From Thermobaculum terrenum ATCC BAA-798 (GTDB taxonomy: Bacteria; Chloroflexota; Chloroflexia; Thermobaculales; Thermobaculaceae): 64,000 nucleotides of DNA. The stretch is taken from NCBI RefSeq assembly GCF_000025005.1, contig NC_013525.1, positions 1,886,501 through 1,950,500 of the forward strand. The letters are read 5' to 3'. The position numbers were made by a program, and so were the translations under genes. The notes below the pieces were generated by a model, which saw only the letters and a program-made list of their open reading frames with translations, ran no database searches and was not told the DNA's origin. Position 1 is the first letter of the stretch. Every line of letters begins with the position of its first letter. This document shows, piece by piece, positions 11,571-40,201 of this stretch.

Positions 11571-11789
11571 ATGCTCGTGCAAAGACGGCTCTTGAAGGTT
11601 CCTGAGGTCGCCTCCTACCTGGGCATCAGCCGCGCCAAGGCTTGGGCCCTGGTCAACTCCGGATACCTGCCCTCGGTGCTCGTGCCCCCGAGATCTCGCA
11701 GGGTCCCGCTGGACGTCCTGGAGAACTGGGTGCAGCAGCAGCTCCAGAGTGCGCCGGCAAAGGAGGCGGCGGATGGCGATGCGGAGTAA
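11571..11789 (+). CDS. Excisionase-like helix-turn-helix DNA-binding protein
   Basis: 72 residues: LLKVPEVASYLGISRAKAWALVNSG followed by YLPSVLVPPRSRRVPLDVLENWV. This is the MerR-like HTH_17/excisionase fold (helix-turn-helix, wing with an RRVP-type strand, then a DVLENWV helix). Such proteins act as Xis factors or replication regulators on integrated elements. An ideal AGGAGG sits before the ATG. Its last 17 bases overlap the start of the primase gene, so translation is coupled. Confidence 0.85.
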   Translation: MLVQRRLLKVPEVASYLGISRAKAWALVNSGYLPSVLVPPRSRRVPLDVLENWVQQQLQSAPAKEAADGDAE

Positions 11790-13737
11790 TCCTGTCGACT
11801 CCTCCCGGGCGGACGCCCCGTTCCCCCAGCCACGCGGCGCAAGACATCAGAAGCAGCCCACAACCGACATCCGGCAGATCAAGTCGAAGCTGGACCTCGC
11901 GTCGCTCGTGGAGCGCCACGCGGGCGAGCTCCGAAGGGAGGGGGGCTACCTGAAGGCCCTTTGCCCCTTCCACAAGGAGAAGACTCCCAGCCTGGCGATA
12001 TACCCTTCGCGCCAGAGGTGGCAGTGCTTCGGCTGCGACCGCAAGGGGGACGTGATCGACTTCCTCGGGCACGTGCGCTTCAACGGCCTTTGGGACCGCA
12101 CCAACAGCTCGCAGTTCAAGGAGGTGCTGGCGGAGGCCACAAGGATCGCGGGCGAGCTCCCCACAAATTCCCGAATTCCCGATCCCTTAACAATCGGGAA
12201 TTCGGGAATTTCTCCCGCCGGCGAGAAGACCTACGAGCTGCGCGATCCTGCGGGGGCGCTGGTGGCCTACCACATCCGCGTGGAGAATCCCGAGGGTGTG
12301 AAGGTGTCCATGCCCTACAAGCTCCCCGACGGCTCGTGGGGCCTGGGCGACCTGCCGAAGGAATCGCTCCCCCTGTACCGCAGCCAGCATCTGGCGTCAT
12401 CCCCCGGGGCGACGATCGTCCTCACGGAGGGCGAGAAGGGAGCGGACGTGCTCTCGGAGCTCCTGCCACCGGAGAAGTACCTCGTGCTGGGCACAGCCTG
12501 TGGCTCAGCCACCACCCCGGGGGAGGAGGCTCTCAGGCCGATCCTGGGCAGGGAGGTCGTGCTCGTGCCCGACGCCGACGAGGGAGGCATCGCTCACATG
12601 CAGCGGATAGCCCTGCGCCTGCTGGAGATGGGCGCGCCCGAGGGCTCCGTCAAGATCCTGCTGGGGTACGACCTGGCGGACTACAGGGAGCCGCTGGAGA
12701 AGCTGCTGGCCCGCAAGGTGAAGACGGTCACTCCCGAGATGGCCACCAGGTGGCGGCAAGAGCGTATTCCCGAATTCCCGGTCCCTAAAGAATCGGGAAA
12801 TCGGGAACATCCCGGGTTCGTCCCCGTGTGGCTGCAGCCCGAGCCCCGGCCACGCGACTGGATCGTCGAGGACCTCATCCCCGAGGGGACGATCACCCTC
12901 CTGTACGGAGACGCGGGCACAGGCAAGAGCGCTTTTGCGACGGCGCTGGCGCTGCACGTGTGCACCGGCAGTCCTTTCCTGGGAAAGCAGACGATCGGCG
13001 GCCCAGTGGCGTACGTGGACACGGAGTTCGACGCGGAGGAGTTCGTCCGCAGGAGCTACGCGCTCTCCCGAGGCATGGGGCTGATGGGCCCGCCGGAGGG
13101 GATCTACTACCTGCGCACGCAGGGCTCCCTGACGGATCCTGCTGTGAGGGCACAGGTGGAGGCCTCGTGGGACTTCGCCCCCGCGATGGTGATCCTCGAC
13201 TCCCTGACGCTGGGGGCATACGAGTCGGACACGAAGGACGTGGCGGCAGTGGTGGAGATCCTGACCTGGCTGGAGGAGCTGCAGATAACGGCGCTGGTGC
13301 TGGATCACCACGCAAAACCCTCCCCGGGAGCCAACCTGAGCGACTACCGCCCCTACGGCTCCTTCGCCAAGCACGGCAAGGGCAGGCACGTGCTGCAGCT
13401 GCTGGCGGGAGAGGCCGGAGGCACCGCGGTGAGGGTGAGCAAGAGCAACCTGGCGCCCCGGGGACTGACGCTGGGCTTCAGTCTCCGCTGGGAGGGAGAC
13501 CAGATACTGCTGAGGGAGGAGCAGCTGGGGAGCGAGACGCTTGCGGGCGTGGAGCGCAACCTGCCGCGCTCGATGCAGGTGCTGATAGCGCTGGCACGCC
13601 ACCCCGAGGGAACAAGCGCCGAGGAGCTGGCCAAAGACCTGGAGATGGGCCAGAAGACGGTGCAGAACCACCTGTCGGTGCTGCGCTCGCTGGGGAAGGT
13701 GCAGCAGCTGGAGAGGGGGAGGTGGGTGGCAAAATAG
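11773..13737 (+). CDS. Mobile-element primase/TOPRIM/RecA-like ATPase replication protein
   Basis: 654 residues. The N-terminal CHC2 zinc finger has CPFH and CFGC (about residues 65-90). A TOPRIM domain has VLTEGEKGADVL and LVPDADEGG. A RecA/RepA-type ATPase has Walker A YGDAGTGKSAF and Walker B AMVILDSLTLG. A C-terminal winged helix (TSAEELAKDLEMGQKTVQNH) completes it. The protein should prime and unwind DNA for a plasmid, phage or integrative element. The start is ATG 11773 behind AGGAGG. Two 45-bp palindromic elements are inserted in frame: residues 132-146 lie between zinc finger and TOPRIM, and residues 332-345 lie between TOPRIM and ATPase. No integrase accompanies it. Confidence 0.9.
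   Translation: MAMRSNPVDSSRADAPFPQPRGARHQKQPTTDIRQIKSKLDLASLVERHAGELRREGGYLKALCPFHKEKTPSLAIYPSRQRWQCFGCDRKGDVIDFLGHVRFNGLWDRTNSSQFKEVLAEATRIAGELPTNSRIPDPLTIGNSGISPAGEKTYELRDPAGALVAYHIRVENPEGVKVSMPYKLPDGSWGLGDLPKESLPLYRSQHLASSPGATIVLTEGEKGADVLSELLPPEKYLVLGTACGSATTPGEEALRPILGREVVLVPDADEGGIAHMQRIALRLLEMGAPEGSVKILLGYDLADYREPLEKLLARKVKTVTPEMATRWRQERIPEFPVPKESGNREHPGFVPVWLQPEPRPRDWIVEDLIPEGTITLLYGDAGTGKSAFATALALHVCTGSPFLGKQTIGGPVAYVDTEFDAEEFVRRSYALSRGMGLMGPPEGIYYLRTQGSLTDPAVRAQVEASWDFAPAMVILDSLTLGAYESDTKDVAAVVEILTWLEELQITALVLDHHAKPSPGANLSDYRPYGSFAKHGKGRHVLQLLAGEAGGTAVRVSKSNLAPRGLTLGFSLRWEGDQILLREEQLGSETLAGVERNLPRSMQVLIALARHPEGTSAEELAKDLEMGQKTVQNHLSVLRSLGKVQQLERGRWVAK
12166..12210 (+). repeat. 45-bp palindromic element, copy 1, in frame inside the primase gene
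   Basis: AATTCCCGAATTCCCGAT and ATCGGGAATTCGGGAATT are perfect 18-bp arms around the 9-base loop CCCTTAACA. The 15 codons read NSRIPDPLTIGNSGI (residues 132-146), in the linker between zinc finger and TOPRIM. Confidence 0.95.
12766..12807 (+). repeat. 45-bp palindromic element, copy 2, in frame inside the primase gene
   Basis: Slightly worn copy with loop TCCCTAAAGA-type sequence. It is translated in a different reading frame from copy 1, as IPEFPVPKESGNRE (residues 332-345), between TOPRIM and ATPase. The change from TTAAC to TAAAG removes the stop codon that this frame would otherwise have. Confidence 0.93.
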
Positions 13738-13833: not shown

Positions 13834-13878
13834 AATTCCCGATTTCCCGGTCTCTTAACAATCGGGAATTCGGGAATT
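13834..13878 (+). repeat. 45-bp palindromic element, copy 3
   Basis: Arms start AATTCCCGATTTCCCG and end CGGGAATTCGGGAATT; loop TCTCTTAACA-type, forward orientation. No TTATG box; it lies within the composite repeat. Confidence 0.93.
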
Positions 13879-14734: not shown

Positions 14735-14779
14735 AATTCCCGATTTCCCGATCCCTTAACAATTGGGAAATCGGGAATT
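14735..14779 (+). repeat. 45-bp palindromic element, copy 4
   Basis: Forward orientation (loop CCCTTAACA), with the box TTATGGTA just upstream and AGTCATAAG just downstream. It marks the trailer side of CRISPR array 1. Confidence 0.93.
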
Positions 14780-14908
14780 AGTCATAAGTACTCCCTCTGC
14801 AGCAGGAGATGCCCCTTCCCCTGCTGCAGCCGCAAGCCACAACCCTCACACTCTGTATCCCGCGCAAGGGGAGGAAGGCACAGCTTGCCTCTCGCCGATC
14901 TCGAGCCC

Positions 14909-15669
14909 CGGTTCACCCCCACGCGTGTGGGGACAATTGGTGGCAGGCGCAGTACCTGGGCTCACAGCCCGGTTCACCCCCACGCGTGTGGGGACAATGC
15001 CTCGCGGATGCGGGCGTCGTCGTCACAGTACGGTTCACCCCCACGCGTGTGGGGACAATGTCTCGGGAGGTGCCCACACCCTGCCACGCCACGGTTCACC
15101 CCCACGCGTGTGGGGACAATGAGGGATTTCGCCTGCTCCCAGGTCGTGAGCTCGGTTCACCCCCACGCGTGTGGGGACAATGGGTCACCCTGCGCTTGGC
15201 CTTTGTCACGGCCGGTTCACCCCCACGCGTGTGGGGACAATACCATCGGTTGCCTCCAGGAGCGCACGGGGACCGGTTCACCCCCACGCGTGTGGGGACA
15301 ATGCGTTGCGGGTGAACCAGGTGCCCGGCCGGTCCGGTTCACCCCCACGCGTGTGGGGACAATAATCCCCACAGCTGACCGTGAGCTTCCGTGGACGGTT
15401 CACCCCCACGCGTGTGGGGACAATGATCCGGATCGTGATCGTGATGACCAAGCGCGCGGTTCACCCCCACGCGTGTGGGGACAATTCGCCAACTGCGTGA
15501 GCGCCACGACCGCCGCACGGTTCACCCCCACGCGTGTGGGGACAATTCAAGTGGATGTGGGACAAGCTCAAGGGTGTCCGGTTCACCCCCACGCGTGTGG
15601 GGACAATGCGCAGAGACCAACCATGAGAAGACGCGTAAGACGGTTCACCCCCACGCGTGTGGGGACAAT
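14909..15669 (-). CRISPR. CRISPR array 1 (type I-E-like repeats), 13 repeats and 12 spacers
   Basis: The 29-bp repeats start at 14909, 14970, 15031, 15092, 15153, 15213, 15274, 15335, 15396, 15457, 15518, 15579 and 15641, with spacers of 31-33 bp. Read in crRNA sense (minus strand) each repeat begins ATTGTCCCC, has a CACGCGTG centre and ends GGTGAACCG, like the E. coli I-E repeat. The leader is on the right. The four oldest spacers (14938-15152) also occur in array 2; eight leader-side spacers are unique. The frames reading FTPTRVGT are translated repeats, not proteins. No cas genes are in the window. Confidence 0.98.
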
Positions 15670-15816
15670 ACTTGCTAACTCCGCATTCTACCTGGGGGTT
15701 TAGTTTTAGATGCCCCGTTTGGTATCAGCCAGCTCCTACTCTACACCCCTCCGCCCAGGCTGTCAAGATACCCCCAAAACGTGTCCAGGTCCCCTCTATG
15801 AAAGGGCACAGCCCCT
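15670..15816 (-). promoter_or_regulatory. CRISPR array 1 leader
   Basis: The leader is nearly identical (inverted) to 38657-38803. It carries the same TTGACA-17-TAGAGT promoter on the minus strand, directing transcription left into the array. Confidence 0.8.
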
Positions 15817-15861
15817 AATTCCCGATTTCCCGATCACTTAAGAATCGGGAATTCGGGAAAA
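15817..15861 (+). repeat. 45-bp palindromic element, copy 5
   Basis: Loop CACTTAAGA; right arm ends AA instead of TT. It ends the duplicated CRISPR block on the leader side and corresponds to copy 16 in the inverted block, which sets its orientation. Confidence 0.88.
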
Positions 15862-18890: not shown

Positions 18891-19089
18891 GGGCCTGTGG
18901 CGTCCACCGCGGATACGGGCCTCCTGCGCAGCTCGATCTATGCCACCTGGCCCTCGTGTAGTATGATATAGCTATCAACTTTTGTTGACGGCCTGGTCCC
19001 TGTAAGTGATGCCACAGCGGTGCGCGAGTGCACCAAGTTCCATAACACCTTGCCTCCAGGGGTCAGCCAGCAAACTACGTGAGGTCAGC

Positions 19090-22000
19090 ATGCAGGTAAG
19101 CGAGTGGAGAGACGCCGTAAGAGCGTATCTGAAGACCATTGAAGACAACTTGCGCACGGGGCACGCCGGCGAGCACACCCACAGGGCCGCGCTCCAGAGG
19201 CTTGTCGAGAGCCTGCAGCCCAACACCCGTGCGATCAACGAGCCGGGACGCAGCGACTTCGGCGCGATCGACTTCCTGGTGCAGCGCCCTCGCCCCGGCG
19301 GCATGATGACCATCGGCTACGTCGAGGCCAAGGATGTGGGCACGGACCTCGACCGCGTAGAGCGATCCGAACAGCTCGTGCGCTACCGCAAGGCCCTGCC
19401 CAACCTCATCCTCACCGACTACCTGGAGTTTCGCTGGTACCTCAACGGCGATCTGCGCGCCAGGGCACGCCTGGGCTCGGCGGACCACTCCGGTAGGATC
19501 GCCAGGGACACGAAGGGCCTGGAGGAGGTCCACCAGCTCCTGAAGGGGTTCATCTCCCAGTCGCCACCGAGTATCTCCAGCCCCCGCGAGCTTGCGATCC
19601 GCATGGCGGAGCTCGCCCACACCCTGCGCGACCAGGTGATCCGCACGCTCGAGCACGAGCAGCTGGCTGCTGCACAGGGAGGTTCCGAGAGCAAGCTGAT
19701 CCTGCAGCTGGCGGCCTTCAGGGAGACCCTCCTGCCGGATCTGCAGCCCGAGGACTTCGCCGACATGTACGCCCAGACGATCGCCTATGGCCTCTTCACT
19801 GCCAGGATCATGGGCGATACGGCCACGACTTTCAACCGCTACATGGCGGCCCATATGCTGCCCAGGACCAACCCCTTCCTGCGCCAGTTCTTCGACGCGA
19901 TCACTGGTCCCGGGCTCTCAAGCGCGGTCGACTGGATCGTTGACGCGATCGCCGACCTGCTCTCCGTGGCCGACATGGCGGCGATCATGCGCGACTTCGG
20001 TCGTGCCACCCGCCAGGAGGATCCCGTGGTCCACTTCTACGAGACGTTCCTGGCGGAGTATGACCCGAAGGTGCGGGAGATGCGTGGGGTGTACTATACC
20101 CCGGAGCCCGTGGTCTCATACATCGTGCGCTCGGTGGACCGCCTCCTGCAGGAGCACTTCGGGCAGGAACACGGCCTTGCCGATCCTAACACCATCGTGC
20201 TCGACCCCGCCACGGGGACGGGCACCTTCCTTTACGATGCGATCCTCAGGGTGCACGAGAGCCTGCTGAGTCGTGGGCTGGGAGGCCTGTGGCAGGGGTA
20301 CGTCGCCGAGCGCCTCATCCCACGCATCTTCGGCTTCGAGCTGCTGATGGCCCCCTACGCCGTCGCGCACCTGAAGCTCTCCTGGCTGCTGCGCGAGACC
20401 GGCTACAACCTCGATGGCTCCGAGCGCATCGGGGTCTATCTAACCAACACCCTCGCGGAGGCGGTGCAGGCCTCACCCCTGCCCTTTGCCGAGTACATCA
20501 GCCAGGAGGCCAACGCTGCCGCGGAGATCAAGCGCGACAAGCCGATCATGGTCGTGCTCGGCAACCCGCCCTACTCCGGCCACTCCGCCAACCGGGGCGA
20601 GTGGATAGGCAACCTCCTGCGCGACTACTACCAGGTGGACGGCAAGCCCCTGGGCGAGCGCAACCCGAAGTGGCTGCAGGATGACTACGTCAAGTTCATC
20701 CGCTTCGGGCAGTGGAGGATCAACCGCACCGGCCAGGGCATCCTCGCCTACATCAGCAACCACAGCTACCTGGATAACCCCACCTTCAGGGGGATGCGCC
20801 AGTCGCTGATGCGCACCTTCGACCACATCTACCTGCTGGACCTCCACGGCAACACCAAGAAGAAAGAGAAGGCGCCAGACGGCGGGCCAGACGAGAACGT
20901 GTTCGACATCCAGCAGGGCGTGTGCATCGGCATCTTCGTCAAGACTCCCGGCTACCAGGGCCCGAAACGCGTGTTCCATGCCGACCTGTGGGGCAGGCGC
21001 GAGGAGAAGTACCGGTACCTCGGGGAGCAGGACGTCACGACCACCCAGTGGCAGGAGCTGCACCCCACATCACCCCTGTACCTCTTCAAGCCCCGCCAGA
21101 CGGACCTTGCGGAGGAGTACGAGCGCGGCCCCAGGATCACCGATATCATGCCCGTAAACTCCGTCGGGATCGTGACCGCGCGCGATAAGCTCGCCATCCA
21201 GTGGAGCTCAGAGGACATGCTCAGGACAGTGCGAGATTTTGTCTCCCTCCCTCCTGAGGAGGCCAGGCAGCGCTACAATCTCGGCCTAGATGTCAGGGAC
21301 TGGAAGGTGAGCCTGGCGCAGCAGGACATCCGCGATCACGGCGTCCTCAGGGACCGCATAGTGCCGGTGCTGTATCGGCCGTTCGATGTTCGCTACACCT
21401 ACTATACTGGCAGGAGCAGAGGCTTCATATGCAGGCCTCGTCCCGAGGTCATGGGCCACATGCTGCGCGGCGAGAACGTGGGGATAAGTTCTACGCGCTC
21501 AATCGAGATAGGCAGGGGATTTGAGCATCTATTTGCTACAAGACACATAGTGCAGCACCATACTGTGTCCATCAAGGAAGTAAACTACCTCTTCCCCCTC
21601 TACCTGTATCCTGAGGGTGGGGAGGCGTACAGCAGGGCGGACGCGATACGCGAGGCGGTGAGGCGCGTCGAGGCGATGGAGATCGCCTCTGCGGCCGAGG
21701 TGGCGCGCACCCAGCAGGAGATACCCGAGCTGGTGAGATCCCTCTTCCCCAGGGAGGAGTACGCCCGCTGGCCCAACTTCGCGCCTACGTTCATCGCCGA
21801 GGTCGCGGAGCGGACGGGCCTGCGCTTCGAGCCCGAGGGGTGGTGGCCCAACCGTCCAGCGGCCCGCACTCCCGGCACCTTCACGCCGGAGGACCTGCTG
21901 GGGTGGATCTACGCCGTGCTCCACTCGCCCAGCTACCGCACTCGCTACGCCGACTTCCTGCGCTCGGACTTCCCGCGAGTGCCCCTCCCGCCCGACGGCG

Positions 22001-22386
22001 ATACCTTCCTCCAGCTCGCGGACCTGGGCCTGCAGCTGATCGACCTGCACACCCTGCGGGATCCCTCCCTGGAGCACACGCAGGTAGGCTTCCCCCAGCC
22101 CGGCGACAACATCGTGGAGGCACCTTGCTACGACGAGCAGAGACAGGTCGTCTGGATCAACCGGACGCAGCACTTCACGCACGTCCCCCGGGAAGCGTGG
22201 GAGTTCCACATCGGTGGCTACCAGGTGGCCGAGAAGTGGCTGAAGGACCGCAAGGGTCGTCGGCTCTCCTATGAGGAGATCGAGACCTACAGGCGAATCA
22301 TCGAGGCGCTGCGGCGCACCCGGGATCTCATGAGCAGGATAGACCAGGTGTGGGTCATCTCACCCGCCCCCCAGGCGGGAGGATAA
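19090..22386 (+). CDS. Single-chain restriction-methyltransferase (type IIG/ISP-like)
   Basis: 1098 residues from ATG 19090, which has GAGGT upstream; an upstream ATG at 19006 would add 28 unconserved residues. The N-terminal nuclease region has SDFGAIDFLV and GYVEAKDVG, a PD-(D/E)xK core. The adenine-N6 methyltransferase has motif X VYYTPEPVVSYIVRSVDR, motif I LDPATGTGTFLYDAI and motif IV LGNPPYSG. The C-terminal half resembles the target-recognition part of type ISP enzymes. No helicase motifs are seen, unlike LlaBIII, so it is closer to a compact type IIG layout. It should methylate one strand of an asymmetric site and cut unmodified DNA. Confidence 0.88.
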   Translation: MQVSEWRDAVRAYLKTIEDNLRTGHAGEHTHRAALQRLVESLQPNTRAINEPGRSDFGAIDFLVQRPRPGGMMTIGYVEAKDVGTDLDRVERSEQLVRYRKALPNLILTDYLEFRWYLNGDLRARARLGSADHSGRIARDTKGLEEVHQLLKGFISQSPPSISSPRELAIRMAELAHTLRDQVIRTLEHEQLAAAQGGSESKLILQLAAFRETLLPDLQPEDFADMYAQTIAYGLFTARIMGDTATTFNRYMAAHMLPRTNPFLRQFFDAITGPGLSSAVDWIVDAIADLLSVADMAAIMRDFGRATRQEDPVVHFYETFLAEYDPKVREMRGVYYTPEPVVSYIVRSVDRLLQEHFGQEHGLADPNTIVLDPATGTGTFLYDAILRVHESLLSRGLGGLWQGYVAERLIPRIFGFELLMAPYAVAHLKLSWLLRETGYNLDGSERIGVYLTNTLAEAVQASPLPFAEYISQEANAAAEIKRDKPIMVVLGNPPYSGHSANRGEWIGNLLRDYYQVDGKPLGERNPKWLQDDYVKFIRFGQWRINRTGQGILAYISNHSYLDNPTFRGMRQSLMRTFDHIYLLDLHGNTKKKEKAPDGGPDENVFDIQQGVCIGIFVKTPGYQGPKRVFHADLWGRREEKYRYLGEQDVTTTQWQELHPTSPLYLFKPRQTDLAEEYERGPRITDIMPVNSVGIVTARDKLAIQWSSEDMLRTVRDFVSLPPEEARQRYNLGLDVRDWKVSLAQQDIRDHGVLRDRIVPVLYRPFDVRYTYYTGRSRGFICRPRPEVMGHMLRGENVGISSTRSIEIGRGFEHLFATRHIVQHHTVSIKEVNYLFPLYLYPEGGEAYSRADAIREAVRRVEAMEIASAAEVARTQQEIPELVRSLFPREEYARWPNFAPTFIAEVAERTGLRFEPEGWWPNRPAARTPGTFTPEDLLGWIYAVLHSPSYRTRYADFLRSDFPRVPLPPDGDTFLQLADLGLQLIDLHTLRDPSLEHTQVGFPQPGDNIVEAPCYDEQRQVVWINRTQHFTHVPREAWEFHIGGYQVAEKWLKDRKGRRLSYEEIETYRRIIEALRRTRDLMSRIDQVWVISPAPQAGG

Positions 22387-24822: not shown

Positions 24823-26130
24823 CTATCTGTACTGTAGTTGCATCAGCGAGATGTCCTCAGGGGACAGGGATTCCTCCACGACGCGGCGGTACTCCGCCTC
24901 GGGGTCATCCTCTCCCAGGACCTCCATCGCGCGGCGGCGGGAGTGGATGCCGGCCTCCACGAGCGCCACCTCGTCGCGCACGGTCTGGGAGCGGTCCTCC
25001 GGCAGGAGGCTGGGCCACTGGACGAGCGTCCTGTAGGGTGCCATGGGGCCGGCGCCCAAGAGCTCCAGGGAGCGCAGGATGAGCTCGTTGCGGGCCTGGA
25101 TGACGCCGGTCCATATCTGGCGCTTGCGGCTGACCTTCTGGACCAGCGGCTCCATCTCGACCTCCAGCGCCGCGCCGGAGATCACCCTGCCGGAATCCCC
25201 AAAGGCCGTGCGCGGGGTCTCGGCGATGTCGTGCAGTGCCCGGTAGAGCAGGTCCACGTACTCGATATGGAGTTTGACGCCCCCTCCCTGTAGTAGGTCG
25301 AGCAGGTAGGCCTTGCTCTCGGCTGGGAGCTCCCAGAGCTGCCCCGGTCCCACGCGGATACCGTCCGCCTCGGCGTTCTCAAGTACGGCGATCGGGTTGC
25401 CCGAGACCTCCAGCACCCAGGCGAGCACGGACATGCGCTTGTTGAGCTCCCGCGCCGGCCCTATGAGGTCCACCAGGTCGGATTCTCCCCAGAAGGAGAA
25501 CGGCCTGCGAATGTTGGGGAATATGACGTAGGGGATACGCCCCAGGGGGTTGGGCAGGGTGGCGACGTGGGCGCCATCGACCTGCAGCGTGACCTCGGAG
25601 TCGGTCCAGCGCTCGACGAACTCGCCGGAGAGCCTGCGGCCGGCCCACAGGCCGTGGTCGACGGGCTCCTCGACGGTGTAGCTGTGGGTGACGGCGAGCA
25701 CCCGCCGGAAGTCCAGCGGGTCGGTCTCGACGTCCAGCGCCTGGGGGTCGACGGAGGTGACCCGGACGCCCTCCTCTGTGGGGAGGACGCGGAAGGCGCC
25801 GTCGCCGATGACGGCGGCATCCACGGCGGTATCGTAGTCGAGCGCGTAGAGGTTGTTGGCCTCGTAGGTGGCCTTGAGCAGGCGCTCCACCTCGGCGGCG
25901 CGCTCCGGGGGCATCTCGTCCGAGGGGGGGACCTGCAGGTTGTACGGCTTGCCGAAGAGGTAGGAGGCCGCCTTGTGGACGAAGACGCGGGCGTAGTTGA
26001 ACGTCAGGCGCTTCTCGCCCGCCCGCGGGGGCGATTCCCACTGGTCGCCGGCGTAGAAGTCGAGGTACTCCCTGTAGCGGCGCAGCCTCTCCCAGCGGGA
26101 GTCGGCCATCTGTACGTTGGTCGCAGCCAT
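24823..26130 (-). CDS. Phage portal protein (SPP1 gp6-like)
   Basis: 435 residues. It shows the portal series RYREYLDFYAGDQWE, KRLTFNYARVFVHKAASYLFG, NPLGRIPYVIFPN and SGAALEVEMEPLVQKV, characteristic of the SPP1/Gp6 portal family. The dodecamer forms the DNA entry vertex of the head. It is preceded by a small gene three bases away and followed by the capsid gene. The terminase that would use it is absent from the window. Confidence 0.88.
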   Translation of the reverse strand: MAATNVQMADSRWERLRRYREYLDFYAGDQWESPPRAGEKRLTFNYARVFVHKAASYLFGKPYNLQVPPSDEMPPERAAEVERLLKATYEANNLYALDYDTAVDAAVIGDGAFRVLPTEEGVRVTSVDPQALDVETDPLDFRRVLAVTHSYTVEEPVDHGLWAGRRLSGEFVERWTDSEVTLQVDGAHVATLPNPLGRIPYVIFPNIRRPFSFWGESDLVDLIGPARELNKRMSVLAWVLEVSGNPIAVLENAEADGIRVGPGQLWELPAESKAYLLDLLQGGGVKLHIEYVDLLYRALHDIAETPRTAFGDSGRVISGAALEVEMEPLVQKVSRKRQIWTGVIQARNELILRSLELLGAGPMAPYRTLVQWPSLLPEDRSQTVRDEVALVEAGIHSRRRAMEVLGEDDPEAEYRRVVEESLSPEDISLMQLQYR

Positions 26131-31231: not shown

Positions 31232-31897
31232 CCCTCAGCCCTCATGTGGGGCACCAGCTCCAGTGCCCCAATTCCCGAAATTCCCGATTTCCCGGTCTCT
31301 TAACAATCGGGAATTCGGGAATTTCTCCCCGAGCCCCTGGAGGAGTGCCCCCTCCCCCCGCCCCCCTCCGGGGGACTGCCCCAGGCGGGGTGCCTCTCAT
31401 GGAGAGAGGTCTCTCCAAGCCTCTCCTCTGGGTGATCTTCCCCTCATTGAGGGAGAAGCTTTCCACCCCAATCCCCTGTGGGCCTTCCATCACGATTTGG
31501 CGAGGGCGTTTTTGTCTCATGGAGAGTACCCTCTCATGCACTCCTCCTGGTGGAGGAGCACCACGCAGTGGCGAGGGGGGCTTCCTCTCATGGAGAGTGA
31601 TCTCTCCAGACCTCTCCCTAGGGTGGATCACCCAGGGCTGGGTGTGTTAGGGATTCATGGAGAGGAGGGGGACGGGAGTCGCCGCCCCTCCTGGGTCCCC
31701 GGACGATCATGGATCGTCTGGGGTTCCCCTCCTCCTCTCCATGGCCTCACCTCCCCCCACAAAGCTGTGCCATGGTGCCATCCAGGGAGGTTGTGGAGAA
31801 CATATGAGTGCTCTGAGGCGTCCTGCTCTGTCCCAGGGACCCCTCTCCCCTAGCCCCTCTCCCACCACTGGAGAGGGGAACGCTGGGTGGTGTCCAG
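31232..31897 (+). repeat. Composite hairpin-rich repeat, copy B
   Basis: 31232-31441 matches 13787-13996 almost base for base. A unique 70-bp piece follows, then 31511-31897 matches 14098-14475 including the nested hairpin. It is followed by a G-rich segment (31930-32096) homologous to the inverted 39986-40200 segment. Confidence 0.85.
31279..31323 (+). repeat. 45-bp palindromic element, copy 6
   Basis: Identical to copy 3 and likewise inside the composite repeat. Confidence 0.93.
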
Positions 31898-32096
31898 GGA
31901 ACTTGGATATGGGTTGGGTCATGGAGGGATTTAGAGAGGTGGGTTGGGGATGGAGTTGGAGAGGATGAGGGAGGGTGGCCGACTGAGGTAGTGGGAGGAC
32001 AAGGGCCACCCCCCTGCTGGAGAGGGACCGGTTGGGGGTGTTAGGGGGTTGGATAAGGGTGGGATTGGAGTGGTGGGAGAGGGTAGTGTTATGACT

Positions 32097-32141
32097 TATT
32101 CCCGATTTCCCGGTCCCTTAACAATCGGGAAATCGGGAATT
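32097..32141 (+). repeat. 45-bp palindromic element, copy 7
   Basis: Forward orientation; preceded by TTATGACT. First base pair of the arms is worn (T for A). Confidence 0.93.
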
Positions 32142-32426
32142 AGGGGCTGTGGGGCTTTGCCTGGCGATCGGGGGTGCAGGGGGCTATGAGGGTGATGAGG
32201 AGGAGACGCCTGATCGAGGCTACTGAGGACTGGGGAACTGACCTTGAGGGGCTGGACACTGGCAGCTTGAGGACCTGCGAGGAGGTGGAGGGTATGTGGT
32301 GCGTCGTCAATCCCTGCCAGGTATGAGAGTGCCCTGCATATGGAGAGTCGGGGGAGGGGTGAGGTGGAGCGCTGGGTACACATCCAGGGCCGCGTTGCCT
32401 GGCTTGCAAAGAGTACACTTATGACT

Positions 32427-32471
32427 AATTCCCGAATTCCCGGTCTCTTAACAATCGGGAAATCGGGAATT
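32427..32471 (+). repeat. 45-bp palindromic element, copy 8
   Basis: Forward orientation; preceded by CTTATGACT and followed by AGTGCGCC. Confidence 0.93.
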
Positions 32472-32663
32472 AGTGCGCCGGGGCTCTCCTGCCTACTGGA
32501 GAGGGCGATACTCGGCGGCGCTCAGGAGGCAAGATCTTGGAGTGGGAAGTGGTGGGATGTAGAAGGGTGGCAAAGGGACGGAACGTGGTGGAAGGAGGGG
32601 CGGGGAGAACTGCTCATCACAAGAGGGTGCACTGGCCACACAGAGGGAGTAAGTCTTATGGTA

Positions 32664-32708
32664 AATTCCCGATTTCCCGGTCCTTAAAGAATCGGGAAAT
32701 CGGGAATA
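32664..32708 (+). repeat. 45-bp palindromic element, copy 9
   Basis: Loop CCTTAAAGA; preceded by CTTATGGTA and followed by AGTGCGCC as in copy 8. Confidence 0.92.
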
Positions 32709-33009
32709 AGTGCGCCTGGCACTTGGCATGTGACGCGTTGGGCTGCGGTGTGGACTCTGAGGATGGACTATCAGGGAGGCTGCCCGCTGAGAGGCTGGGT
32801 GAAGAGTGGTGAGGGATGCAAGGAGGGGACAGGACTGGTAGCACACCACCGATTGAGCGTGCTCTGCAGCCCCGGTCCCCACCCTGAGCTGCCACAGCAG
32901 GAGTGGCAGTTGCTTCCTGGGAAGGGTAGCAGCTGCGTGTCTGGTGCACGGTGGCATGCGGTCCTGAGGCTTGAAGCCCCTACGGCTGCACAGGCAGGGA
33001 GTTATGACT

Positions 33010-33054
33010 AATTCCCGATTTCCCGATCCCTTAACAATCGGGAAATCGGGAATT
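33010..33054 (+). repeat. 45-bp palindromic element, copy 10
   Basis: Perfect arms, loop CCCTTAACA, preceded by TTATGACT. It lies 89 bp before the alkA start. Confidence 0.94.
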
Positions 33055-33142
33055 TCTCTCCGCGCTCCGGGGGCAAGGATGCCCCCCCGGGCTCATCCGG
33101 CATAATGGGATGCAGCACATACAGAAGCTTCCTGGAGGTAGT

Positions 33143-34048
33143 ATGTGGGTCGAGAGGTGGATTGTCCCCAATGGGCCCCTGCGGCTGGCTCATGCGTTGC
33201 TGTACCTGCGCACTTCGCCCTCGGCGGTGCTGGAGAAGGTGACGGAGGATGCCTGCAGGCGGGCTCTTCGTATTAATGAAAGAGCGGTGCTGCTGCAGGT
33301 GCGACAGGAAGGGCAGGGCGTGCGGGTGACCCTCTGGGGCGACGCGCTGGACGATGCGACCGTGGCGGCCGCTGAGGCCGAGGTGAGGCGCATCTTCCTG
33401 CTGGACGAGGATCCTGGGGCCTTCTACCGCGAGGTGCCCCTCAGGGATAGGGTGCTGGGCCGGGTGATGGAGGACTACCTCTGGGCGCGGCCCGTGCTGA
33501 TCGCGGATCCTCTGGAGGCGCTGATGTGGGCGATCATCGGCCAGCAGGTGAACGTGGCGTTCGCGCGCAAGCTGAAGGCCCGTCTGGTGGAGCTGTGTGG
33601 GAGTGTCCTGGAGGTGGATGGCGAGCGGTACTGGGTCTTCCCGCCGGCGTGGAGGATCGCCGATCTGCCTGAGGACCTGCTGAGGGGCAACCAGTTCAGC
33701 CGGCAGAAGGCCCGCTATATACTGGGGCTGGCGAGGGCTGTGGCCTCGGGGGAGCTGGACCTGCGGGCGCTGGGTGTCCTCCCCGTGGAGGAGGCGATCG
33801 CGGAGCTCGTGCGGTTCCTCGGAGTGGGCAGGTGGACCGCGGAGTACGTCCTGATGCGGGGGCTGGGGAGAGCCGATGTGATCCCTGCGGCGGACCTGGG
33901 CCTGCGGGCGGTCATGGGGCGGCACTACCTGGGCGGCAGGGTAGCGACGGAGGCGGAGGTGAGGGAGATCTCCGCGGCGTGGAGTCCCTGGAGGGCCTGG
34001 GGGGCATGGCTGTGGTGGCTGCACCTGCAGGTGACCAGAGGGGTGTAG
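33143..34048 (+). CDS. DNA-3-methyladenine glycosylase II (AlkA family)
   Basis: 301 residues from ATG 33143, which has GGAGG at the right distance. After an N-terminal beta domain, the helix-hairpin-helix HhH-GPD core reads MWAIIGQQVNVAFARKLKAR, RYILGLARAVASG, LVRFLGVGRWTAEYVLMRGL and the catalytic Asp in VIPAADLGL. It removes alkylated purines in base excision repair. It is flanked upstream by a palindromic element. Confidence 0.93.
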   Translation: MWVERWIVPNGPLRLAHALLYLRTSPSAVLEKVTEDACRRALRINERAVLLQVRQEGQGVRVTLWGDALDDATVAAAEAEVRRIFLLDEDPGAFYREVPLRDRVLGRVMEDYLWARPVLIADPLEALMWAIIGQQVNVAFARKLKARLVELCGSVLEVDGERYWVFPPAWRIADLPEDLLRGNQFSRQKARYILGLARAVASGELDLRALGVLPVEEAIAELVRFLGVGRWTAEYVLMRGLGRADVIPAADLGLRAVMGRHYLGGRVATEAEVREISAAWSPWRAWGAWLWWLHLQVTRGV

Positions 34049-34121
34049 ATAGAGGGTCAAGATTTTGGTACCCTTCTTGCAAGGATGCTGTGTAAGTCAT
34101 CAAGGGTATAAGGAGAGGTGT

Positions 34122-34442
34122 ATGCCACTGGTAATCCTGCTCATCATAGCGCTGATCGTGTTCGCGGTGATCATCCTCATCGCCAGCAGCCTGATCGGCC
34201 TGATCTTCACGCTGATCGTTGCAGGCATCGTGGGATGGATCGCCGACATGATAGTCCCAGGGGAGCTGCCCTACGGCTGGCTGGGCGCTATCGCGGCGGG
34301 GCTGCTCGGCAGCCTCATCGGTGGCCTGCTGCTGGGGAACCTGGGACCTGAGATAGGCGGGATCAGCGTCATCCCCGCGCTGGTGGGCGCCATCATCCTG
34401 GCGTTCCTGCTGGAGTGGATCGGCCAGCGAAGGCGCGCCTAG
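34122..34442 (+). CDS. GlsB/YeaQ/YmgE-family membrane protein
   Basis: 106 residues, almost entirely hydrophobic, with three or four spans. The segment GIVGWIADMIVPGELPYGWL and later GLLGSLIGGLLLGNLGPEIG are the family signature (transglycosylase-associated protein). Often stress-induced; the biochemical role is not known. AGGAGAGG precedes the ATG. Confidence 0.9.
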   Translation: MPLVILLIIALIVFAVIILIASSLIGLIFTLIVAGIVGWIADMIVPGELPYGWLGAIAAGLLGSLIGGLLLGNLGPEIGGISVIPALVGAIILAFLLEWIGQRRRA

Positions 34443-34456
34443 CCAGTCATGTAACT

Positions 34457-34485
34457 TTGTCCACCAGGAGGGCGTTATATATGTT
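34457..34485 (+). promoter_or_regulatory. Promoter of the SH3b lipoprotein gene
   Basis: TTGTCC (34457-34462), 17 bp, TATGTT (34480-34485), followed by a GCCGGC/GCCGGC hairpin (34491-34511) in the leader. Confidence 0.5.
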
Positions 34486-34535
34486 AGCGCCGGCGGGACC
34501 TGCCTGCCGGCAAGTAGTTGCTGTAAGGAGTGAAC

Positions 34536-36005
34536 ATGTACCGTAGACTTTCCTTGCTAGTGCTGTTGTGCCTGCTGCTGGTGGCCTGTGGCGGCAGGGG
34601 AGGATCCCCCACCCCGACGGTCGGCAGCTCGCCCGACCCCACAAGCTCCGCCGGCCCCCAGGCATCGCCCGCACCTTCGCCGACGGCTGCAGCCTCCGTG
34701 GGGCAGCCCTCGCCGACGCCCACAGAGGTCGCCAGCCCCGAGCCCTCACCCACCGCTCGCCCCAGCGAGAGCCCTGCGCCCTCGCCCACACCCACCGCGG
34801 TGGCGAGCCCGAAGCCCAGCCCCACAAGCGTCCCCTCGCCGACGCCCACCAGGCCCCCCGGCGACGAGCAGGCGGGATGCCAGCCCGCCAGGGCCCGGGC
34901 ACTGTACGTCACATCCGACAGCGGCCTCAACCTGAGGGCAGAGCCCAGCACCGAGGCCGACATCCTGCTCACGATGCCCCTCGGGGCACAGGTGCGCGCC
35001 ATCTGCCAGATATCGGTCGACGGAGAGTCCTGGTACAAAGTGCGCTACGAGGGTCACCTGGGGTACGCCTACGCCAACCTGCTCACCGACGAAGAGCCGC
35101 AGCCTCCCAAGCCCGCGCCCACCATACATGTGCCCAGGGGCAGGGCCGCCTCCTGGATGGATAACACCATCCTGTTGGGGATGTATGGCCGGTCCTTCGG
35201 GGTGGCACCCATCCTGGGACGCGTAGGCCTGTACCGCAACCTGGACGACATGGCTCGCGACGTCCAGCGCTTCGAGGCGCAGATGCGCCCCTACATAGGC
35301 GACAAGCAGGTGCGCCCCGAGATACACCTCATCTACGCGATGGCGGTGCCCTGCTGGGGCGACAGCGACTGCCTGTCGTACCTGGACGACACGGGCGTAG
35401 ACATCGTCAACACGTACATCAAGCCCGCCCAGGAGCTCGGCTGGCTGGTGGTGCTCGACACCCAGCTGGGCAGCTCCAACCCCGTCGAGCAGGTGCAGCG
35501 GATGATCGACAAGGGCTACCTCAAGTACGACAACGTCCAGGTGGCGCTGGATCCCGAGTTCCACGTGGTGCCCGGGCACGACCGACCGGGCATCCCCGTG
35601 GGGTCCATCGATGGCTCCCAGGTCAACGCCGTCCAGCAGATGCTCAACGACTACGTCCGTCGCGAGGGCCTGCCCCACAAGAAGGTGCTGATCGTGCACC
35701 AGTTCCTGGAGTCGATGATCCAGAACAAGGACACCATCCGGCTGTACCCCGAGGTGGACCTCATCATCGACGCCGACGGTCTGGGCGCGCCCTACATCAA
35801 GACGTTCAAGTACAACCTCTTCACCGACAGCTCGCGCTACCCATTCGTGCGCTACAGGGGCATCAAGCTGTTCCCCGAGGGACCATCCACCACCGAGGGA
35901 CACTTCGACACCCCTCTGATGACGATGCGCCAGGTGTTCGGGTACGCCCCCGTGCCGGGAGGCATCCGGATGCACGTCCCACCCGACCTGCTCATATTCG
36001 CCTGA
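34536..36005 (+). CDS. SH3b-domain lipoprotein with an uncharacterised C-terminal domain
   Basis: 489 residues. The signal peptide RRLSLLVLLCLLLVACGG places the lipidated Cys at position 18. A Pro/Ser/Thr-rich linker (about 25-110; PSPTAVASPKPSPTS-like repeats) follows. A bacterial SH3 domain is next (LNLRAEPSTEADILLTMPLG, WYKVRYEGHLGYAYANLL), then about 300 residues with IHLIYAMAVPCWGDSDC and DNVQVALDPEFHVVPGH. The latter region looks like a TIM-barrel hydrolase but I cannot place it. Anchored outside the membrane; may act on cell wall or envelope glycans. AAGGAG precedes the ATG. Confidence 0.8.
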   Translation: MYRRLSLLVLLCLLLVACGGRGGSPTPTVGSSPDPTSSAGPQASPAPSPTAAASVGQPSPTPTEVASPEPSPTARPSESPAPSPTPTAVASPKPSPTSVPSPTPTRPPGDEQAGCQPARARALYVTSDSGLNLRAEPSTEADILLTMPLGAQVRAICQISVDGESWYKVRYEGHLGYAYANLLTDEEPQPPKPAPTIHVPRGRAASWMDNTILLGMYGRSFGVAPILGRVGLYRNLDDMARDVQRFEAQMRPYIGDKQVRPEIHLIYAMAVPCWGDSDCLSYLDDTGVDIVNTYIKPAQELGWLVVLDTQLGSSNPVEQVQRMIDKGYLKYDNVQVALDPEFHVVPGHDRPGIPVGSIDGSQVNAVQQMLNDYVRREGLPHKKVLIVHQFLESMIQNKDTIRLYPEVDLIIDADGLGAPYIKTFKYNLFTDSSRYPFVRYRGIKLFPEGPSTTEGHFDTPLMTMRQVFGYAPVPGGIRMHVPPDLLIFA

Positions 36006-36685
36006 CAGGCCATGCCTACCCCCCTCTCCGCTCGGGAGAGGGGGACCCCTCACCGTCCCCCAGCCCACCCCGAGAGGGCAAAGCCTGAGCACATACCCTG
36101 TCCTCAGCCCCAGCCTGTCAGGAGCTCCACCCGCATATATCGCATTCCACATACACCTGCACCCATCGCCCAGCCCCAGGCCCTCGGGAGCTCACCCTCC
36201 CCGCACCCACCACCTGCGGCACATGGCGATCACCCACCACAAGAGCACCCAAGCCCCTGGCAGCCCAGGGCCTCCACCTGGGATACATATTTGGGATACA
36301 TATTGACACCTCCCTATCCCATCCATCTCAGCCGTCACCGCCACCACCACGCCCCCAGCCCTTACGTACCCCGCACCCATAGGTATAGGCAGAGCGCTCT
36401 CGTACACCTGACCCAGGACATATGGCAGCTTATGCACCTAGCACCCGCAGGTGCAGGCACCATGCAACCAGTGGTCATCGCCTCCGGGACCTTATATGCC
36501 CCACAGCCACCTACGCGGCCACCCTTGCCGGCCAACCAGAGGCACTGGCCGCTCGGTGCTCCCCCCACCCTCCGCACCTACGCGGCAACCCTCCCGGCCT
36601 CATGTATCACCCCCACGACCAGCCAGGCTACTGGCGCTGCCACGTTACCCATATGCCGGTCACATCTACCACCCCCACGACCCCA

Positions 36686-36787
36686 CGTGCAGGCCTCGTA
36701 TCTGCTCTGAGGTGCAAGAGGATAAGAGGGTATGGCACCTCAAAGACTCCTACGCGTGCAGTCCTCGTATCTGCTCTGAGGTGCAAG
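36686..36787. repeat. Pair of 33-bp direct repeats with a 36-bp spacer (mini-CRISPR-like)
   Basis: Repeats at 36686-36718 and 36755-36787 differ at one base (CGTGCAGG vs CGTGCAGT start, GAGGTGCAAG end). Repeat and spacer sizes fit a two-repeat CRISPR remnant of a type other than I-E. Chance duplication is also possible. Confidence 0.5.
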
Positions 36788-36850
36788 GCAATTGGCAATA
36801 CGCCCCACCTCCCACAACCCCCTGCACCCCACATCAATAGCCCCAGCCCC

Positions 36851-36895
36851 AATTCCCGATTTCCCGATTACTTAAGAACCGGGAAATCGGGAATA
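36851..36895 (-). repeat. 45-bp palindromic element, copy 11
   Basis: Loop contains the symmetric ACTTAAGA. The TCATGACTT box on its right side shows reverse orientation. Confidence 0.92.
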
Positions 36896-37073
36896 AGTCA
36901 TGACACCCTGCACTGCCTGTGGACCCGGTGCACCCCCAGGGGGAGTATCCCTCCCCACAGCAGGCAATCCCTCTACCCCCACTGACCCCCCAGCCCTCCC
37001 ACCCCCTCAACCCCATGCTCCCCAGACACCACCCTCCCAGGGATGCAAGAGATCTCTCCACCCCCACGCCACT

Positions 37074-37118
37074 TTTTCCCGAATTCCTGATTACTTAAGG
37101 ACCGGGAAATCGGGAATT
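37074..37118 (-). repeat. 45-bp palindromic element, copy 12
   Basis: Left arm has one substitution (ATTCCTGAT); the TACCATAA box on the right shows reverse orientation. Confidence 0.9.
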
Positions 37119-37521
37119 TACCATAACACTTACCGTCCTCTATGTTGACCCAATGTACTCTCCCTGTGCCGAACCCTCAGTCCCAACTGCCCCATCACCT
37201 GATCTCACGACCACCGCCAGCCGGAAGTCTAGTAGCAGCTTTCATGGCCTGCAAGCTCTGCCTGCCATCCACTCGCCTCCACCCCACCTTCCAGTCCATC
37301 ATCCCTGCCAGGACCCAACTGACCCCGCGAGTGCCCACTTCCAGGCATCTGGCCCGCTCCCCCCACCGCTCTTATGGCCCCTGCCGGATCCTCAGGACCA
37401 CGCATGACGCTGCCACCTTCACCGGTAGCGCCCTTCCAGCAGGGGATAGCTCTCACAGCGCTCTGCGCCCCACCTCCACGATCCCACGTGTCCCATCCCT
37501 CCATGCAAGACCACAACCACT

Positions 37522-37566
37522 TATTCCCGAATTCCCGATTGTTAAGGGATCGGGAAATCGGGAATT
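37522..37566 (-). repeat. 45-bp palindromic element, copy 13
   Basis: Loop TGTTAAGGG (reverse); box AGTCATAA on the right. Confidence 0.93.
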
Positions 37567-37879
37567 AGTCATAACATCTATCCTGCCTTGGGGATCGTAG
37601 AGGTTGCCTGGCACTCCCCGTGACCACACCCCTCACATGCACAGGCACCCACGGAGCAGGTGAGCAAGCGGGAGGCAGACCCTTCCAGCCCCTATCCCTT
37701 CCCCTTTGCCTTCCAGGGTCCCCTGCCCCGGGAGCTGCCCCGAGGCTCCAGCACCTCCCAGCTCCCCCACGTCCCCTGAGGAGGTGGCTCCCGCATATCC
37801 CTCCCCAGCCCTGCACCCCCAGCTCACAATCCTCCGAGCCCTTCCCCGCCAATCCATGACCCCCTTCATGTAGCACCCT

Positions 37880-37924
37880 TCTTCCCGAATTCCCGATTCT
37901 TTAGGGACCGGGAAATCGGGAATT
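37880..37924 (-). repeat. 45-bp palindromic element, copy 14
   Basis: Loop TCTTTAGGG (reverse of the CCCTAAAGA form also seen in the in-frame copy 2); box AGTCATAAG on the right. Confidence 0.92.
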
Positions 37925-38162
37925 AGTCATAAGTGCTCCCTGCGGGCTTGCACCACGGGGAGGTCTCGAGCACCCAGGTGTGAGGCGTGGGCAGATCCTG
38001 CCTCCACTCCATAGGCAGTGGACTCCCAGAGCGTACCCTGCCCCTGTAGTCCCTGGTGCCTGCCATGGCCTTGCACTCAAAGCTCCCAGCTGCGCTACCA
38101 CACAGCCCCACAGCGGCCTCCCCAACAGCTCGCCCTCAGGGATACCCCACACCCACCACCCT

Positions 38163-38207
38163 TATTCCCGAATTCCCGATTGTTAAGAGACCGGGAAATC
38201 GGGAATT
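38163..38207 (-). repeat. 45-bp palindromic element, copy 15
   Basis: Loop TGTTAAGAG (reverse); box TACCATAA on the right. Confidence 0.93.
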
Positions 38208-38611
38208 TACCATAACGCTGGATGACTCCCGCCCCCTGCCACAGGTGAGCCGTCCCTGTCCGGCGCCGCCCACCTGTGGCCCGGGCTTCCCGTCCTCCTG
38301 CTGCAGAGGGTCTGCAGGGGCAGGATTACTGGCATCTGGAATTGGTCTTCGCCCCTGCGCATCCTCCTCTCAAAGGCAGCAGAGATGGTCCGGGGCACGC
38401 CCACATTCCGCCACTGCCCCTCTCCAGAAGTCCTCAGGACTCAGCTCCCACTTGTCCCATCCCAGGCACTTCAGCTCCATGTACGGACCGGTGCCTCGTC
38501 GTACGCCCCATCAGGTCTCAGACACCCCTCTCTGGGACCCCCTCCTCGCGAACTCCCCTGGCAGAGCCCAGTCCTCAGGTAGCCTCTCCGTCAAGCGGCC
38601 CCCTTCGGACA

Positions 38612-38656
38612 AATTCCCGACTTCCCGATTGTTAAGAGACCGGGAAATCGGGAATT
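38612..38656 (-). repeat. 45-bp palindromic element, copy 16
   Basis: Loop TGTTAAGAG (reverse). It bounds CRISPR block C on the leader side; the inverted counterpart of copy 5. No TTATG box. Confidence 0.93.
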
Positions 38657-38803
38657 AGAGCCTGTGCCCTTGCATGGAGTGGAGCCTGGACATGTCGGGG
38701 GGTATCTTGACAGCCTGGGCGGAGGGGTGTAGAGTAGGGGCTGGCTGATACCAAACGGGGTATCTAAAACTAAACCCCCAGGTAGAATGCGGAGTTAGCA
38801 AGT
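38657..38803 (+). promoter_or_regulatory. CRISPR array 2 leader with promoter
   Basis: TTGACA (38707-38712), 17 bp, TAGAGT (38730-38735). Transcription would begin about 60 bases before the first repeat. Nearly identical, inverted, to the array 1 leader. Confidence 0.8.
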
Positions 38804-39442
38804 ATTGTCCCCACACGCGTGGGGGTGAACCAGAAAGCCAGTCTTTAGGGATGCGGAATACACCATTGTCCCCACACGCGTGGGGGTGAACCGCCACCGA
38901 GACCACGAACCGTGAAGAGCGTCCAATTGTCCCCACACGCGTGGGGGTGAACCGAGCTCACGACCTGGGAGCAGGCGAAATCCCTCATTGTCCCCACACG
39001 CGTGGGGGTGAACCGTGGCGTGGCAGGGTGTGGGCACCTCCCGAGACATTGTCCCCACACGCGTGGGGGTGAACCGTACTGTGACGACGACGCCCGCATC
39101 CGCGAGGCATTGTCCCCACACGCGTGGGGGTGAACCGGGCTGTGAGCCCAGGTACTGCGCCTGCCACCAATTGTCCCCACACGCGTGGGGGTGAACCGGT
39201 ATGCGCTCATCGTCTGCTCCTTGTAGTGTGATTGTCCCCACACGCGTGGGGGTGAACCGTCCTCCAGGTGAGCACGCGCCCACAGGGGCCGATTGTCCCC
39301 ACACGCGTGGGGGTGAACCGGAGGTACGAGATGATCAAGCGTGAATTCCTTAATTGTCCCCACACGCGTGGGGGTGAACCGCGTCCGCGAGCGGCTGGGC
39401 ATGTCCCAGAACGATTGTCCCCACACGCGTGGGGGTGAACCG
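38804..39442 (+). CRISPR. CRISPR array 2 (type I-E-like repeats), 11 repeats and 10 spacers
   Basis: The 29-bp repeats start every 61 bp at 38804, 38865, 38926, 38987, 39048, 39109, 39170, 39231, 39292, 39353 and 39414, with 32-bp spacers. The leader is on the left. Spacers 3-6 (38955-38986, 39016-39047, 39077-39108, 39138-39169) are the reverse complements of spacers 4-1 of array 1, in the same order from the leader. Two leader-side spacers and four trailer-side spacers are unique. The first repeat ends in A instead of G. No cas genes are nearby. Confidence 0.98.
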
Positions 39443-39572
39443 GGGCTTGAGATCGGCGAGAGGCAAGCTGTGCCTTCCTCCCCTTGGGTGGGATATAGAG
39501 TGTGAGGGTTGTGGCTTGTGGCTGCGGCAGGGGGAAAGGTCATCGCCTGCTGCAGAGGGAGTACTTACGACT

Positions 39573-39617
39573 AATTCCCGATTTCCCGATTGTTAAGGGA
39601 CCGGGAAATCGGGAATT
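39573..39617 (-). repeat. 45-bp palindromic element, copy 17
   Basis: Loop TGTTAAGGG (reverse); TACCATAA box on the right. It bounds CRISPR block C on the trailer side; counterpart of copy 4. Confidence 0.93.
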
Positions 39618-39940
39618 TACCATAATGCTGTAGATGAGTGATACCCCGCACCATGGTGGTAGCATCGCCTGAGGGAAGTCCTCATGACCCTGCGCTCAGG
39701 CATCCGTCTGTGGCGTTGCTTCCTGCGGAGCACTCTCAGGGTGTAGTTGCGGGCAAGGGGCACCTCTGGCCCTGCCAGGCTTCCGTCCATCGTGGGACAG
39801 GCGGCCTCCTCTGGCCCCGACACCTCACTCCCGGGCCACACGCAGGCCTTGATATACCTGTCTCTAATTACTCCTCAGCGCAGGGTCACCTCCAGCCCCC
39901 AGGCCCCATGCACCCCTCTCACGACGGACCCCTCCGAAGC

Positions 39941-39985
39941 AATTCCCGATTTCCCGATTACTTAAGAACCGGGAAATCGGGAATT
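39941..39985 (-). repeat. 45-bp palindromic element, copy 18
   Basis: Central ACTTAAGA is symmetric; the TACCATAA box on the right indicates reverse orientation. Confidence 0.92.
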
Positions 39986-40201
39986 TACCATAATGCCACT
40001 CTCTCCCACCCCTCATAGCACACTCCACTCCCTTCCCTAAGCCCTCCCTATCCTCCATGACCCAACCCTTATCCAGGCCCCTAACGTCCAACCTTCCCTC
40101 TCTCCAGCAGGGATGCGCCCCCTGTCCTCCCACTACCTCGGCCGGCCACCATCCCTCCCCATCCCAATCCCATCCCCAAACCACCCTTCTAAACTCCACT
40201 G

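Follow-up and report, generated by a model that had tools for sequence, protein, structure and literature searches.

In Thermobaculum terrenum, a replication gene that codes for a fusion of a primase with a RepA-type ATPase carries two copies of a palindrome, both translated in frame within inter-domain linkers, and related replication genes carry palindromes of their own with genome-specific half-sites. We consider that these palindromes are probably DNA sites cognate to the replication module in which they are encoded, with their being specifically an origin a plausible, if more tentative, proposal.

The stretch of DNA that was analyzed, hereafter the window, comprises 64,000 nucleotides of chromosome 1 of T. 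terrenum, whose genome of 3,101,581 bp is divided between two replicons (2,026,947 and 1,074,634 bp). The primase/RepA protein (Table 1) displays a CHC2 zinc finger at residues 31–100 and an AAA_25 ATPase domain at residues 352–516 (Pfam); its PHROG annotation is primase/helicase, and its ATPase profile matches RadA and RepA (1g8y) in a PDB sequence search. As with the HTH_17 gene preceding it, an HTH_17-like frame, read from the sequence, also lies 5′ of the CHC2 gene in the genome G341. The G+C content of the window is 61%, peaking at 67% (24–28 kb), and the mean for chromosome 1 is 48% (PMC3035366); this G+C-rich stretch looks like a chromosome-2-type or acquired segment. A type ISP restriction-modification gene (19006–22386) and an SPP1-type phage portal gene (24823–26130) are situated between its two palindrome clusters.

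Table 1. Replication genes, palindromes and palindrome islands of T. terrenum (window positions unless prefixed; residues count from the ATG at 11773).
Feature	Position	Strand	Basis
HTH_17 (excisionase/MerR-type) gene 5′ of the primase; candidate DNA-binding partner	11571–11789	+	Pfam HTH_17 3e-10; PHROG excisionase/transcriptional regulator
Fusion of a primase (CHC2 zinc finger, TOPRIM region) and a RepA-type ATPase that ends in a winged HTH; 654 aa	11773–13737	+	Pfam, PHROG and PDB sequence matches
Palindrome copy 1, CHC2/TOPRIM linker, residues 132–146, four perfect TTCCCGA half-sites	12165–12211 (core 12168–12208)	+	
Palindrome copy 2, TOPRIM/ATPase linker, residues 332–345, TAAAG loop, other reading frame (core spans the whole range)	12767–12807	+	
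Third copy, about 100 bp past the primase/RepA stop codon; right flank TTTCTCCC in common with copy 1	13836–13876	+	
Two palindromes (14737–14777, 15819–15859) either side of a 13-repeat CRISPR array (14910–15669)	14737–15859	+	
Non-coding island with five palindromes (31281, 32099, 32429, 32666, 33012)	31281–33052	+	
Non-coding island with eight palindromes (starts 36853, 37076, 37524, 37882, 38165, 38614, 39575, 39943) on either side of an inverted 11-repeat CRISPR array (38804–39441)	36853–39983	-	
Primase/RepA paralogues	C1:981,500–983,668 (L039:500–2668) and C1:1,699,672–1,701,837 (L040:673–2838)	-	

Each palindrome comprises the 7-bp half-site TTCCCGA four times, first as two direct and then as two inverted copies, giving the core TTCCCGAWTTCCCGRT-N9-ATCGGGAAWTCGGGAA. 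The 41-bp core of copy 1 sits within a 47-bp palindrome that encodes NSRIPDPLTIGNSGI, and copy 2 encodes IPEFPVPKESGNRE. The earlier note had placed both copies in the coding sequence at these residues with the frame intact, in phases that differ by one base and in linkers on either side of TOPRIM, and all of this holds up: the core offset of the first full codon is 1 for copy 1 and 2 for copy 2, and the domain positions put them in length-variable linkers, respectively N-terminal and C-terminal of the TOPRIM region. The difference in frame indicates that it is the DNA, and not the peptide, that is kept. With 41 one-arm near-matches in the window versus 0.07 expected from shuffled sequence, a chance origin of the repeat is excluded. 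The common loop, CTTAAC, does amount to a TAA stop when read in the frame of copy 2, as had been claimed, and the TAAAG-type loop of copy 2 is open; however, the latter is not private to this copy, being present in four island copies as well, and is thus a pre-existing variant rather than evidence of a rescuing mutation.

Across homologues from the class and the phylum, both linkers vary in length and lack the palindrome-encoded residues. The alignment thereby bears out that these segments are not ancestral protein, although it does not by itself establish the insertion of an unrelated repeat. Genomes of the same family yielded no full-length orthologous gene, their best palindrome match being a single arm-like sequence with one mismatch, and neither an empty site (the gene without the palindrome) nor a target duplication was seen; with no empty site found, insertion is unproven.

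Genome-wide we found 39 palindromes, all in a few clusters (C1:578.6–584k; window 12.2–15.9k and 31.3–40.0k; C2:12.6–13.9k; C2:1054–1072k), and none of the 37 outside the primase/RepA gene lies in a recognizable gene at the loci inspected. The latter belong to islands composed of non-coding, palindrome-bounded blocks of 200–450 bp that recur in changed order and orientation (window 31281–40000, L005:8600–13950, L006:7650–8890, L007:4180–4590), with some blocks 100% identical between islands and others about 90%. Integron-like cassettes were considered for these shuffled blocks, which are without convincing genes. Most island copies share the flank TTATGRYWAA upstream and a G-rich stretch downstream; the absence of both from the in-gene copies marks the palindrome itself as the common unit. 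On the other side of the ledger, TTTCTC[CT]C to the right of copy 1 recurs at other copies, including the one just 3′ of the gene, and this common flank suggests that copying has probably taken place between the gene and the islands.

Both CRISPR arrays of the window have palindromes on either side, and a further array adjoins the island at C1:578–584k (at C1:584k). The two window arrays have the same repeat and four spacers in common in opposite orientation, suggesting that an inverted duplication took place inside the islands. None of the 111 spacers matched the examined loci outside the arrays. The palindrome was likewise unmatched in viral contigs as a possible source, and no close relative of the primase/RepA protein was found in phages or viral contigs.

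The half-sites are nearly invariant, with 3 changes in 1014 positions over all 39 T. terrenum copies, whereas homologous non-CRISPR flanking blocks are mostly 4–20% different (a single recent duplicate shows no difference). At spacer position 8, 19 of 38 copies can pair, close to the roughly 20.6 that independence would give by hand calculation from the frequencies in each column, and all 24 of the non-Watson–Crick pairs at position 15 are G–T in the same strand orientation. Near-invariance of the half-sites combined with the lack of covariation argues that they are conserved as double-stranded DNA and not as a hairpin. Such conservation would fit a protein-binding site or a homogenized repeat, two possibilities that are not fully separable.

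Comparable palindromes occur in related replication genes. The orthologous ATPase gene of G341 has two in frame, at its N- and C-terminal ends, of a sequence absent from the rest of that genome. In the orthologue of G390, whose primase is of the unrelated Prim-Pol type, two lie in the linker joining primase and ATPase, and in G458 two are directly 3′ of the orthologous ATPase gene; G390 and G458 each also have a separate intergenic palindrome cluster. The palindromes of T. terrenum, G341, G390 and G458 align to one consensus with a CCCTTAAGG core, and their half-sites differ in concert from genome to genome (TTCCCGA, TTCACGA, TTCATCAC). A distant homologue in G073 (L105:436–3051) has a linker and a C-terminal tail, both S/D-rich, that are encoded by several palindromes composed of the 9-bp iteron CGTCACTAG; 13 of the 14 genome matches of this iteron are within the primase/RepA gene. 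The two T. terrenum paralogues possess an unrelated palindrome, AAAACCAACAAC-N11-GTTGTTGGTTTT, in the TOPRIM–ATPase linker and near the C-terminus, with no occurrence elsewhere in the T. terrenum genome. About 4 kb from the G341 module lies a large serine integrase, the only clear nearby integrase among the modules, which suggests that this module is probably part of an integrating element. Strong palindromes were absent from the weaker relatives L103, L104 and L106 and from most viral ones, and a scan of genome contigs with the T. terrenum protein returned only ordinary DnaG-like relatives.

An in-gene palindrome with a score of at least 14 was found in 9 of 22 family genes. Of 101 control frames, 4 had one, but three of these lie on palindromes or CRISPR and are not genes, which leaves 1 of 98. 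The comparison of 9/22 with 1/98 gives a Fisher p = 4e-7, and a deliberately pessimistic 5/101 gives 4e-5, values that overstate independence because the family genes are longer and mutually related. In some cases (L105 and L045), the null obtained by synonymous shuffling is raised by the repetitiveness of the peptide itself.

We propose that a protein of the module, e.g., the HTH_17 protein or the winged HTH of the ATPase, would recognize the half-sites in double-stranded form; the DNA that carries the sites also encodes the primase and RepA-type ATPase. Were the palindromes such sites, those within and just 3′ of the gene would most likely be, or once have been, the initiator iterons that make up the origin of an element able to replicate and integrate, with autoregulation as an alternative use. 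A site placed inside a gene must be coded through, hence the translation of the in-gene palindromes, something that linkers and open frames would permit. The T. terrenum site may also have reached the islands beside the CRISPR arrays along with non-coding blocks or through their recombination. The palindromes of G341, G390 and G458 count in favor of cognate sites, as they combine a common architecture with genome-specific half-sites. Also in favor are the palindromes of G073 and of the T. terrenum paralogues, the excess of palindromes in family genes, the near-invariant half-sites, the two reading frames of the in-gene copies, the integrase near the G341 module, and a lambda-O-like initiator gene of T. 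terrenum with iterons in its linker (described below).

A well-studied counterpart is lambda, whose origin lies inside gene O, with palindromic iterons that are part of the coding sequence and are translated (PMC4488673, PMC7466680); in Stx phages, extra iterons lengthen O by 13 residues (PMC7466680, PMC4488673). The likeness lies in repeated, translated palindromic iterons inside a replication gene—in inter-domain linkers in the T. terrenum gene (P0001), its two paralogues, G390 and G073, at the gene ends in G341, and just downstream in G458. Unlike lambda, the gene here is a primase/RepA-ATPase fusion, the sites are sets of four half-sites of about 45 bp in two linkers and downstream, no AT-rich element is obvious, and tens of copies occur elsewhere in the chromosome. 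Confinement of the sites to the gene, as would be expected of a lambda-type origin, holds for the palindromes of G341 and of the T. terrenum paralogues, and nearly so for that of G073, but not for those of the T. terrenum primase/RepA gene, G390 and G458, given their copies elsewhere. In RSF1010, a RepA-type ATPase works with a primase, initiation is at hairpin (ssi) sites, and the genes and oriV are separate. The present module resembles it in pairing a RepA-type ATPase (the 1g8y match) with a primase and differs in having its sites within the fused gene. A search of the literature on origins inside primase genes found nothing specific.

Several observations weigh against the proposal. First, 37 of the 39 T. 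terrenum copies are in islands without replication genes, which goes beyond the needs of a pure origin, and the separate clusters of G390 and G458 are likewise left unaccounted for by a plain origin. Second, palindrome position relative to the gene varies among genomes, which fits movement as well as turnover. Third, several weaker relatives have no strong palindrome, and a clear integrase is apparent only near G341. Finally, no AT-rich unwinding element seems to stand out beside the T. terrenum copies: only the palindromes themselves have a lowered G+C fraction (0.55–0.59 versus 0.67), with no separate AT-rich stretch. The extra copies may be remnants of other integrations, products of block-recombination spread, or decoys, and they leave some room for the mobile-repeat and decoy readings discussed below.

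The earlier note had instead read the palindrome as a mobile element of the Rickettsia type, with purifying selection removing harmful insertions; in this account, a selfish, MITE-like repeat would have hit the gene twice by chance and survived there thanks to keeping the reading frame within linkers. Its factual supports stand, namely the 39 dispersed copies, the homologues without these residues, and the location of both copies in linkers, to which the flank common to copy 1 and island copies can be added. What finds no support is the chance hit by an independent mobile palindrome: in related replication genes, similar positions are occupied by palindromes of other sequence, and the half-sites behave like conserved protein-binding sites, being far more conserved than their flanks. 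Further, at the loci inspected, coding copies are found in the primase/RepA gene only, and two of them there, neither a target duplication nor an empty site was seen, and a Y1 transposase is lacking. Rickettsia palindromic elements are about 150 bp long and occur in many unrelated genes (PMC10969869). The resemblance to them lies in palindromes translated in frame within a protein gene; against their roughly 100–150 bp, we find a 41-bp core and at most 47 bp (copy 1), in one gene family with gene-specific variants. We regard this account as unlikely; should the palindromes prove to be cognate sites, being in frame would on its own be no evidence of selfish insertion.

A role as operators, through which the HTH_17 protein or the winged HTH of the ATPase would control transcription of the gene, with island copies being regulatory or decoy and no origin function, would suit the invariant tandem and inverted half-sites and the HTH gene directly upstream; it sits poorly with sites deep within or 3′ of the gene, away from the promoter, and with their recurrence specifically in primase/RepA genes, and we hold it to be distinctly improbable. 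Another conceivable role for the island copies is that of origin decoys titrating the initiator, so that an invading element using the primase/RepA module cannot replicate. Sites of the initiator of such a replicon would then be kept beside the CRISPR arrays, with half-sites constant while flanks drift. Lambda is indeed arrested by ectopic copies of its origin (PMC4488673), yet we rate this reading as a long shot.

Hairpins acting in the mRNA by attenuation, stability or translation pausing could draw on the strong inverted repeats and the uniform strand of the 24 G–T pairs at position 15, but spacer position 8 does not covary, variation avoids the half-sites rather than respecting pairing, and an Rfam search gave no match at the palindromes, rendering this role highly improbable. 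REP/REPIN elements mobilized by a RAYT (Y1) transposase share the short palindrome, the tens of dispersed copies and a partner gene, but are scarcely credible here, because the partner is a replication gene and no RAYT, the T. terrenum genome has no Y1_Tnp (PF01797) protein in a search that was positive in control genomes, and the palindrome end has no GTAG/CGTC tag.

If the cognate-site proposal is true, these genes would represent a recurrent Chloroflexota design in which a primase/RepA gene bears its own palindromic recognition sites in coding linkers, and the concerted shift of site sequence among genomes would provide a natural series pairing initiator specificity with DNA sites. The constrained, dispersed copies beside the T. 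terrenum CRISPR arrays raise the testable question of whether they relate to decoys, incompatibility or recombination.

A lambda-O-like HTH_36 initiator gene is also present on chromosome 2 of T. terrenum near 1,072,800–1,073,700 (L008:2778–3722, minus strand), with repeated iterons in its linker (AAACCCTGAACG / CAGGGTTT, also rendered as AAACCCTG...CAGGGTTT). Strong palindromes or repeats were further observed in linkers or C-terminal tails of other primase-family genes (L053:3858–3918, L046:4167–4212 and L045:3211–3255), which are possibly more examples of the same design.
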